Shown in pieces: positions 44,844 to 49,102 of a stretch of 64,000 nucleotides of DNA. The stretch is from a virus: IMG/VR virus record IMGVR_UViG_3300024252_000004, positions 186,001-250,000 of that record. One strand, written 5' to 3'. Each line of letters opens with the position of its first letter. Within the stretch, counting starts at the first letter, position 1. The notes under the pieces were generated by a model that saw only the letters and a program-made list of their open reading frames with translations, was not told where the DNA came from and ran no database searches. Both the position numbers and the translations under genes were made by a program.

Positions 44844-45506
44844 GTGCCAAAAAAGAAATTCAGTTGTAAAAACTGTAATACGGTCACAGAAAGATATAGG
44901 AGCACGGTAAGAAATCCAGACAAAGTCTTTTGTTCTAAAGAATGTAAAGGCTCTTGGCAAAAAGGTAAGACTACCGGAAAGGATAATCCAAACTATCGCG
45001 GCGGACTACACTGCGAACAATCCTACTGCAAGTGTGGTTCTGAGAAAGACTATAGAAGTGAGCAGTGCATGAACTGTCGTTCTATCGTTTTCAATATGGA
45101 TCAAATCCTGTTGGCAATAGCGAATAGTAAGAGCTACAGTGAAGCTTCAGTCAATCTTGGAATGTCGCGAACATACCTAACGAAATATATCAAAGAGCAC
45201 AAATTAGATATAGCACACTTTAGGCCGGGAAGAAATAGGGAGATTCCTAACGAAGAGTTATTCTCAAAATCTTTTTCGAGAAGAAATAACACGGTTAAAA
45301 AAAGAATAACTAGAGATAAACTGCTTGTCAATTCCTGTTTGTGGTGTGGAATTACAGACACTTGGAATGACAAGCCTATAACATTAGAACTTGATCACAT
45401 CAATGGTGATCCTACTGATAATCGTATTGACAATTTGCGTTTACTGTGTCCTAATTGCCACAGCCAAACTCCCACGTCGAAAGGTAAAAACAGTAGAAAA
45501 AAATAG
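44844..45506 (+). CDS. HNH homing endonuclease (free-standing)
   Basis: 220 residues from a GTG after GAGAGGTGAAT (an in-frame GTG at 44838 is possible). The N-terminus has treble-clef fingers (CKNC, FCSKEC, CKCGS, CMNC). A helix-turn-helix follows, then the HNH core LELDHINGDPTDNR with NLRLLCPNCHSQT. It lies 11 nt upstream of the phosphoesterase gene that carries a 14-nt palindromic insertion, the same neighbourhood as mobA and gene 60 in T4. Confidence 0.87.
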   Translation: MPKKKFSCKNCNTVTERYRSTVRNPDKVFCSKECKGSWQKGKTTGKDNPNYRGGLHCEQSYCKCGSEKDYRSEQCMNCRSIVFNMDQILLAIANSKSYSEASVNLGMSRTYLTKYIKEHKLDIAHFRPGRNREIPNEELFSKSFSRRNNTVKKRITRDKLLVNSCLWCGITDTWNDKPITLELDHINGDPTDNRIDNLRLLCPNCHSQTPTSKGKNSRKK

Positions 45507-45517
45507 GAGGTGCCGCT

Positions 45518-46167
45518 ATGTCAGGTCAGAAGACTTTTTTCACTTCTGACCTCCATTAGCTGGAGGTCACTTTTTTCATCACAATATAATTAAATATTCT
45601 AACAGACCTTATCGTGATTCGCATGGCGAGCCTGATGTGAATGCAATGAATGAGGGAATTGTTAATAACTGGAATGAAGTAGTTGGTCCTAAAGACCGAG
45701 TATTTATCCTGGGCGATGTAGCAATGGGCGGAATGTCTAAAGCTCCTTACCTCGCAGAATACCTGCGTCGTCTTAACGGTGACAAATATTTGGTTCCTGG
45801 CAACCATGATACTTACATTCTCAATAGCGAAGAATGTATGGAAGAGCTAACCTTGCTTCCTGCCGTTTACGAACTGAAGATTCCAGATGACACTCTTCCT
45901 AAGCGAAAGAATGGTCGTATGAAGCGTCAGACGATTGTTCTGTGTCACTACTCTATGAGAGTATGGCACAAAAATGGCAAGGGTGCTTGGCATCTATTCG
46001 GCCACAGTCATGGCAGCATGGATGGCATCGGACTATCTTTCGATGTTGGTTTCGACGGACCATACTCTAATCATCGCCCTATGAGTTATGAGCAGGTTCG
46101 CGACGTTATGAGTAACCGAGAAATGGCTCTACTTGATCATCACGGCGAACATACAAGCTACCATTAA
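45518..46167 (+). CDS. Metallophosphoesterase with putative translational bypass
   Basis: The ATG follows a strong TAGGAGGTGCCGCT site and gives 13 codons, ending TSDLH at CAT (45554-45556), followed at once by TAG. The family pattern DLHFxHxNII resumes in another frame at TTT (45571). Skipping 14 nt (45557-45570) from CAT to CAC restores all residues: D11, H13, H16, then GDVAMG, GNHD, HYSMR and GHSHG, 211 residues in total. A perfect 8-bp hairpin (45548-45568) contains the take-off codon and the stop. Without bypass a GTG at 45637 would give a protein lacking the first metal ligands. It may instead be a pseudogene. Confidence 0.75.
45523..45568 (+). promoter_or_regulatory. Overlapping hairpins at the bypass site
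   Basis: AGGTCAGAAG/CTTCTGACCT (10 bp, 45523-45552) and GACCTCCA/TGGAGGTC (8 bp, 45548-45568) share GACCT and exclude each other. The second places CAT and TAG in its 3' arm and loop. They may drive ribosome take-off, or act as an attenuator. Confidence 0.6.
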
Positions 46168-48087: not shown

Positions 48088-48321
48088 ATGGACGACGAGA
48101 ATGATGACATTTTTGAGGAAGAAGATTCCGGAACACTAATGTATCACGTTGTCTTTAAGGGAGGTGGTATGCTCAGAGTAGAGCTTCCCATTGATGAAGT
48201 ACCTCAGTCTAAAGATGAATTGGTTCTGGCCAGAAACGTCAGTCCAGTAGTTTACTACACAGGTGCGATTCTTGACTGGAATCAAGTTGCTGCTTGTGTT
48301 CCCGATTACTCTACAGTATGA
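48088..48321 (+). CDS. Acidic hypothetical protein
   Basis: 77 residues; the first 16 are almost all Asp and Glu, then a beta-rich part. It ends adjacent to the minus-strand HNH gene. Unrecognised. Confidence 0.55.
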   Translation: MDDENDDIFEEEDSGTLMYHVVFKGGGMLRVELPIDEVPQSKDELVLARNVSPVVYYTGAILDWNQVAACVPDYSTV

Positions 48322-49011
48322 TTAATAAGATTTGCCATCTTTATATCTTTCGCGCCTCTTATATCTTCCCATGCCTTTGTTCTTACCTTTATAAGTATCA
48401 GTCTGAGCATGACAATTTGGACAGATTAATCTAAGATTCGATAAAGAATTGTTTTCTGAGTTACCATCGATGTGATCTAATTCAATCGGCATTGGTAACT
48501 CATTCCATTCTAACAAATCGCACACAGAACATTTGCTTCCGTTGTGTTTTAAAAGATATCTTTTTCCAACTACCGCAGAAAACTTTCCAGATGCTATTCT
48601 TTTCTCAAGATCAAAATCATGCTGGCAATAGTTTGAGCAATACTTTGCAGAACCTCTCTTGGTTTTTTTGCCGCAATTTACACAATCTGATGCGGGTTTA
48701 CCATTTCTGGTGACGCCTACATTGTGAAATGAAGCAGAGCAGCTATGAGAACAAAATTTGGAATTAGCTTTAGCGTAGTTGGTGAATGAATTGCTGCAAC
48801 CTAAACAAATATATTCTACGAGAACTTCATTAAATAAACTCCTGCATTGACCTGAACAAAATGAATGCGTAAGATTTTTTCGAATGGAACGCAAAACTGA
48901 ATGCTTATTTATGCGATAAGCTTCATCGCATTGATCACACTCAAGAGTTACAATTTCTCTTGATTTGAAGTCTGATAACCACTCTCTGATGTTATCATCT
49001 GAATATTTCAT
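48322..49011 (-). CDS. HNH homing endonuclease (free-standing)
   Basis: 229 residues. Five or more CxxC treble-clef fingers (CDQC, FCSGQC, CLGC, FCSHSC, CVNC, YCSNYC) precede the HNH core CSVC, IELDHIDGNSENNS, NLRLICPNCHAQ. It is on the minus strand between + genes, as expected of a mobile insert. It lies 13 nt from tRNA-Thr; its recognition site may be in or near that tRNA. Confidence 0.88.
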   Translation of the reverse strand: MKYSDDNIREWLSDFKSREIVTLECDQCDEAYRINKHSVLRSIRKNLTHSFCSGQCRSLFNEVLVEYICLGCSNSFTNYAKANSKFCSHSCSASFHNVGVTRNGKPASDCVNCGKKTKRGSAKYCSNYCQHDFDLEKRIASGKFSAVVGKRYLLKHNGSKCSVCDLLEWNELPMPIELDHIDGNSENNSLSNLRLICPNCHAQTDTYKGKNKGMGRYKRRERYKDGKSY

Positions 49012-49024
49012 GTCTTCCTTTTAT

Positions 49025-49102
49025 GGCCGTCTAACTCAATTGGCTTAGAGTACCTACCTCGTAAGTAGGAAGTTTCCGGTTCGAGCCCGGAGTCGGCCTC
49101 CA
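49025..49102 (+). tRNA. tRNA-Thr (anticodon CGT)
   Basis: Acceptor GGCCGTC/GTCGGCC with one T-T mismatch, D arm ACTC/GAGT, anticodon stem CCTAC/GTAGG with loop CTCGTAA, T arm TCCGG/CCGGA, discriminator T and encoded CCA. It decodes ACG. Confidence 0.9.

Follow-up and report, generated by a model that had tools for sequence, protein, structure and literature searches.

The analysed window, i.e. the whole stretch of 64,000 nucleotides (G000:C1:186001-250000), belongs to a 395,127-base virus record of a jumbo phage that is rich in tRNA genes (43 Rfam tRNA matches). One tRNA-like gene at 28615-28688, for which ARAGORN gives a two-base anticodon, can be drawn with an anticodon stem of 5 bp and a 6-nt loop or of 4 bp and an 8-nt loop. 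The ORF located directly 5' of a metallophosphoesterase (MPE) gene matched Pfam HNH_3 (3.4e-07) and HNH (6.9e-05) as well as PHROG 10822, HNH endonuclease (1.5e-38). An HNH domain lying between phage genes fits a free-standing homing endonuclease, whose cleavage activity is putative. The stop codon of this ORF (45504-45506) lies 11 nt upstream of the MPE start codon, ATG 45518, as stated in the preliminary description of this DNA. A second HNH ORF in the window (48322-49011, minus strand) is flanked immediately by the end of the gene at 48088-48321 and, on its other side, by a tRNA-Thr gene at 49025.

A split phosphoesterase gene

The MPE gene is divided into two ORFs by a short coding gap (Table 1). 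The sequence and the ORFs confirmed that the 13 codons from the ATG end at CAT (45554-45556, the proposed take-off codon), followed directly by TAG (45557-45559), and that the gene continues 14 nt later in another frame (-1 relative to ORF1), with FFHHNIIKYSNRPY starting at 45571, right after CAC (45568-45570). ORF2, the first 22 codons of which include no start codon, matched PHROG 547 phosphoesterase (8.5e-40) and Pfam Metallophos (9.1e-06). The constraint 3' of the break, the loss of which would indicate a pseudogene, was retained, as ORF2 kept 18 of the 19 alignment columns invariant in eight other homologues. The MPE catalytic motifs DxH, GD, GNHD, H and GHxH are all present, DxH only when ORF1 and ORF2 are joined. 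Deleting exactly 14 nt rebuilds DLHFFHHNII, i.e. the metal-binding motif DxHFxH of the family. The homologues carry an unbroken FFTSDxHFGHxNII, so the 14 nt of the window are extra, and the earlier claim that their removal restores the family spacing holds. The joined product has a computed length of 211 residues (13 + 198), in agreement with the length given previously, and a predicted junction peptide TFFTSDLHFFHHNIIK.

Table 1. Features of the split MPE locus, in positions of the window
Feature	Position	Strand	Basis or remark
HNH homing-endonuclease-like ORF, 222 aa	44838..45506	+	directly 5' of the MPE gene
Shine-Dalgarno (SD) GGAGGT of the MPE gene	45506..45511	+	sequence
ORF1, 13 codons MSGQKTFFTSDLH, MPE N-terminus including the metal-site D	45518..45556	+	translation; homologues xFFTSDxHFGH
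5' stem-loop AGGTCAGAAG / CTTCTGACCT, 10 bp	45523..45552	+	common to all nine gapped genes
Second hairpin TGACCTCCA / TGGAGGTCA, 9 bp, loop TTAGC, around the stop	45547..45569	+	not common to relatives
Coding gap TAGCTGGAGGTCAC, 14 nt	45557..45570	+	stop TAG, SD-like GGAGGT 45562-45567, proposed landing CAC 45568-45570
ORF2, 198 codons of MPE, all remaining catalytic motifs	45571..46167	+	PHROG 547, Pfam Metallophos

The gapless comparison for the window gene relied on homologues of approximately 50% identity or less, in which the 14 nt were absent, as the check proposed earlier had asked. The sequence collections searched contained no close DNA relative of the phage, whether carrying or lacking the 14 nt, and in a synteny comparison with XacN1 the neighbouring genes were non-homologous. 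A search of the phage's own genome for further copies of the gap or the hairpin returned only chance-level partial matches. The pattern TGACCTCCA-N5-TGGAGGTCA had 32 matches in viral contigs, which were not treated as relatives.

Two hairpins flank or enclose the break. The upstream 10-bp hairpin was present as described, and the one around the stop was also found, with 9 bp instead of the reported 8. The SD sequence of the gene has an alternative predicted pairing with ACCTCC at 45549-45554. The 64 kb contain 14 perfect inverted repeats of at least 9 bp, including both hairpins, in comparison to 0 to 3 in first-order Markov copies. With arms of at least 8 bp and loops of 3-12 nt, 22 perfect inverted repeats were counted across the window (1-64000) and 3 to 12 in the Markov copies.

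Gapped phosphoesterase genes in other viral contigs

Eight further MPE genes with the same architecture, all from uncultivated virus contigs, were identified, giving at least nine distinct gapped genes together with the window. The gap was found in none of 60 phage records sampled evenly from 1,518. In the common build, a short ORF that terminates within SDx(H) or immediately behind it is followed by an immediate stop, a gap of 5, 6, 11 or 14 nt and the rest of the gene with the catalytic residues. The gaps measure 14 nt and 11 nt once each, 6 nt twice and 5 nt five times, and removal of each restores DxHFxH. The stop is the first codon of the gap in every case (TAG in seven genes, TGA in one and TAA in one), and ORF2 is open and intact in all nine, also where an endonuclease is absent or present only as an HNH relic. 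With three stop codons and seven different gap sequences among nine genes, the gap is not a single inherited sequence.

A viral-contig search with a homologue alignment returned 80 loci, of which 77 read through D-x-H; in each of the other three, the x codon was immediately followed by TAG and the gap occupied the same position. L067 (GAC ATC TAGCGAGGATC CAC, 11 nt), L100 (GAC TCC TAGCT CAC, 5 nt), L116 (GAT ACT TAGCT CAT, 5 nt) and, from a second search, L414 (GAC ACC CAC TGAAT TTT, with TGA as the stop) were found without demanding a stop or a gap. Two pattern scans that demanded TAGC yielded, among the matches listed, at least L250 and its near-twin L380 (GAC CTT TAGCTA CAT), L381 (ACT TAGCT CAT) and L385 (ACG TAGCG CAT). 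An alignment of the near-twins over 5,500 positions contains five mismatches and one gap, none of them in the element or the MPE gene. Scanning the collected loci for a hairpin, stop and ORF in succession detected the majority of the MPE cases again and also revealed L008 (CAT TTT GGT TAA GGT CAT), a candidate glycine stop-hop whose break is shifted two codons downstream. The same scan returned a GroEL-like gene in L173, which was rejected because its own frame is uninterrupted.

On a quick family tree of 129 sequences (LG+G4, L008 left out), the gapped genes were scattered and unclustered, with eight changes for eight gapped rows. This scatter means repeated origin of the gap or its repeated transfer by homing. 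Long-term retention is seen in no lineage, which is the weak point of the functional case. The suggestion that the 14 nt are a very recent mobile palindromic insertion became less likely, given that the gaps of the relatives are non-palindromic and differ in length, sequence and stop codon.

Stems, flanking codons and neighbouring endonucleases

In each of the nine gapped genes, 0 or 2 nt separate the end of a predicted stem from the stop downstream of it. The minimum free energy of the 60 nt before the stop ranged from -14.1 to -31.8 kcal/mol (mean -20.8), whereas the corresponding 60 nt 5' of the His codon averaged -6.9 (sd 3.5) in 148 intact homologues, five of which reached -14.1 or lower; kinship among the sequences makes the Mann-Whitney value (P = 4e-7) a guide. 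Within this homologue set, every gene without D at its place has the gapped architecture. The stem pairings are built from different letters (TCT-GAC/GTC-AGA, TCA-GAC/GTC-TGA, TCG-GAC/GTC-CGA and GCG-GAC/GTC-CGC). In most gapped genes the 3' arm consists of the (T)SD or AD codons and the 5' arm varies accordingly, so that the structure is maintained despite sequence change. The outer stem is common to L116 and L381, whose inner stems are wholly different (CCAAG/CTTGG versus AGAATC/GATTCT). Several stems include G-U pairs and thus fit an RNA structure better than a DNA palindrome. The stress previously laid on the hairpin around the stop did not carry over to the relatives, which share only the upstream hairpin; a stem-loop containing the take-off codon and the stop measures 9 bp in the window, and inspection of the short-gap relatives revealed none.

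The codons flanking the gaps are also related. The take-off and last gap codons are CAT/CAC, ATC/ATC, CTT/CTA, GGT/GGT, ACT/GCT (twice), ACG/GCG, TCC/GCT and CAC/AAT, with 18 of 27 bases matching versus 8.5 expected (permutation P = 0.0003) and the middle base matching in all nine pairs (permutation P = 0.0003). The match arises partly because the gap begins with TAGC where x is Thr or Ser. Landing by the same tRNA would apply to CAT/CAC in the window and to ATC/ATC, GGT/GGT and CTT/CTA; the five 5-nt gaps fit less well, and in L100 and L414 the tRNA would re-pair only poorly with the +5 codon. Both long gaps (14 and 11 nt) contain an internal SD-like motif and a landing codon read by the same tRNA at all three positions. 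By analogy with T4, these two cases suggest that an SD-like motif and same-tRNA landing may be what a longer slide needs (PMC5009743).

A homing endonuclease gene or relic adjoins five of the nine gapped genes versus about two of 121 intact loci (Fisher P about 1e-5); the flanks compared were of unequal length, the number of intact loci is an estimate, and endonucleases were recognised by simple motifs and by similarity to four proteins. The two intact cases are HNH genes. Apart from the window, L067 and L100 carry related endonuclease-like genes (33% identical, with a weak NUMOD3 match and a VRDHIY motif) that end 45-49 nt before the H codon. All that remains in L381 is a C-terminal HNH relic, which has 71% identity to the window HNH protein over 28 residues. 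In L385, a LAGLIDADG gene (L385:3590-4219, LAGLIDADG_3 1.3e-10) lies downstream of the gapped gene on the opposite strand. No endonuclease was recognised in the contig sequence examined for L116, L250, L414 and L008. In a different locus, an HNH gene (L068:896-1297, minus strand) was observed upstream of an intact, ungapped phosphoesterase gene.

For T4 gene 60, a review of recoding regards the gap as a possible protection from the spreading endonuclease (PMC5009743). By the same logic, the MPE gaps probably mark alleles resistant to homing endonucleases, and the neighbours suggest that three endonuclease families may have converged on the most conserved DNA of the MPE gene. A TATAAT-like box upstream of the L067 endonuclease gene (L067:60-115) is closely followed by AGTGACCTACACTTTGGTCAC. 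The translation of AGTGACCTACACTTTGGTCAC would be SDLHFGH, the same motif as in the MPE target. Autorepression through an operator is known for I-TevI. By analogy, AGTGACCTACACTTTGGTCAC could be an operator for autorepression, or else a remnant of MPE.

Proposed ribosome hopping and its alternatives

The gapped architecture is real and very probably one of a recurrent class, and we consider it probable, from the sequences compared, that the gap in the window is crossed by a programmed ribosomal hop. Ribosomes would start at 45518 and translate MSGQKTFFTSDLH until TAG enters the A site. The peptidyl-tRNA-His would then release CAT, while the stem-loop would re-form behind the ribosome like a zipper and draw the mRNA forward, and the SD-like GGAGGT in the gap may hold the mRNA. 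After re-pairing of the tRNA with CAC 14 nt on, translation would resume with FFHHNII, and the resulting enzyme of 211 residues would have its DxHFxH metal site intact. Homing endonucleases that target this stretch of conserved DNA probably have their recognition site interrupted by the gap, and the hop would preserve the function of the enzyme. A hop is favoured because skipping alone re-establishes the D-x-H-F-x-H spacing in each of the nine genes. Eight further genes of the same architecture, interrupted at the same motif, strongly strengthen the case for the bypass element proposed in the preliminary description, although the joined protein is still a predicted one.

The main rival is recurrent inactivation, in which endonucleases cut the DxHFGH codons, faulty repair leaves short resistant inserts and the gapped copies are recent null alleles. 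Endonuclease genes or relics beside five of the nine genes, a break that always falls at the same motif and the scatter on the tree are all compatible with it, and the second hairpin of the window could be a template-switch product. Ordinary decay is nevertheless disfavoured because the stop is the first gap codon, with a hairpin before it, in all nine genes. Recurrent inactivation explains neither these stops nor the stem ends 0 or 2 nt before them, nor the G-U wobbles of several stems and the codon matches. The homologue set of the fold comparison contained no disrupted copies lacking the hairpin, and ORF2 is intact even beside an endonuclease relic or none, so we regard this explanation as unlikely. 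A translational switch, with the hairpin and the short ORF serving as a leader-peptide element and initiation further downstream, e.g. at GTG 45637, giving a shorter MPE, draws on the hairpin covering the start codon or the SD in several copies. It is a very doubtful reading, as a start codon lies upstream of the hairpin in L116, L381, L385, L414 and L008 and the short product would lack DxHFxH, which is invariant in the family.

Recoding by another route, either removal of the gap from the RNA or a -1 shift that reads through it, would be in keeping with the length of seven of the nine gaps, 2 modulo 3, as expected for a common -1 step. Such a shift leaves a D-xxx-H spacing or worse, with loss of the metal site, and no shift explains the two 6-nt gaps, which are in frame with a stop. 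Slippage by -1 at the T6 run before the stop was rejected, as TGA follows after two codons. We know of no splicing that removes 5 nt, and these two routes are together distinctly improbable. For a group I intron remnant, gaps of 5-14 nt would be too short to hold an intron core. An assembly or sequencing artefact in single metagenomic contigs is a concern for the window record, which has no second copy in the collections. Recurrence makes it very unlikely, and the least probable reading weighed here, since the architecture is common to nine contigs and one element is identical in two of them (L250 and L380).

Relation to known recoding systems

To our knowledge, ribosome hops in phages are so far firmly known for one T4 gene only. 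The MPE genes resemble T4 gene 60 in several respects (PMC5009743, PMC3014915, PMC11194080): a stop right after the take-off codon (UAG in T4) and a 5' stem-loop upstream of it, both in all nine genes, a same-tRNA landing codon with an SD-like motif before it in the window, an HNH homing endonuclease gene just upstream and an insert near the 5' end of the gene. The T4 gap, in contrast, spans 50 nt (14 in the window, 5-14 in the relatives) and is preceded by 46 codons (13 in the window, about 9-26 overall). Here the stop follows the stem after 0 or 2 nt, and a different gene is involved, with nine unclustered examples versus one. Bypassing in T4 depends on a nascent-chain signal, KKYK, 25-30 residues from the P site (PMC5009743, PMC11194080), and falls below 10% without it (PMC11194080). 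With about 9-26 codons before take-off, a tunnel signal of the KKYK type is excluded and the hairpin would have to do more. The likeness to T4 gene 60 put forward earlier therefore stands for the layout but not for the mechanism, given chains of about 9-26 residues and gaps of 5-14 nt. Judged from its sequence, the MPE hop would work like the T4 bypass or a stop-hop and fall outside the T4 type if a nascent-peptide signal is taken to define that type.

Synthetic stop-hops of this kind work in E. coli, as far as the review account of Weiss et al. 1987 goes (PMC5009743). In that account, matched codons flank a stop and 9 nt are decoded as one amino acid; L250 (CTT-TAG-CTA) and L008 (GGT-TAA-GGT) are likewise in frame, and steps of +5 and +6 are comparable. 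The differences are that the MPE genes are natural and have an upstream hairpin. In the other gapped genes the steps are +5, +11 and +14. The byp elements of Magnusiomyces capitatus mitochondria, compared here by their description in PMC5009743, are also short nucleotide blocks that interrupt genes and are corrected in translation, whereas the present cases concern phage genes of one family, with one site, an A-site stop and homing endonucleases nearby. A bypass proposed for the terminase of Streptomyces phage Hau3 similarly involves a phage gene and a short gap, but also a UUA codon and other features (PMC5009743). The one proposed for the tape measure gene of mycobacteriophage Corndog shares an HNH gene inserted upstream in a phage gene, but its mechanism is not settled (PMC4351075). 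According to a 2016 recoding review, shorter counterparts of the T4 gene 60 bypass had long been presumed and hardly found, and no natural in-frame stop-hop was known (PMC5009743). We found no report of a hop in phosphoesterases in the open-licence literature.

There is about an even chance that natural short hops, including in-frame stop-hops, form a widespread class with many origins at one active-site motif, serving resistance against several unrelated homing endonuclease families (HNH, NUMOD3-type and LAGLIDADG) and driven in common by a hairpin abutting the stop. Nine candidates with a simple common layout would extend an isolated case to a class whose minimal design can be tested, consisting of a hairpin, a take-off codon, a stop and a landing codon. 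If the link to endonucleases is true, selfish nucleases can drive repeated evolution of recoding at the most conserved codons of a gene.
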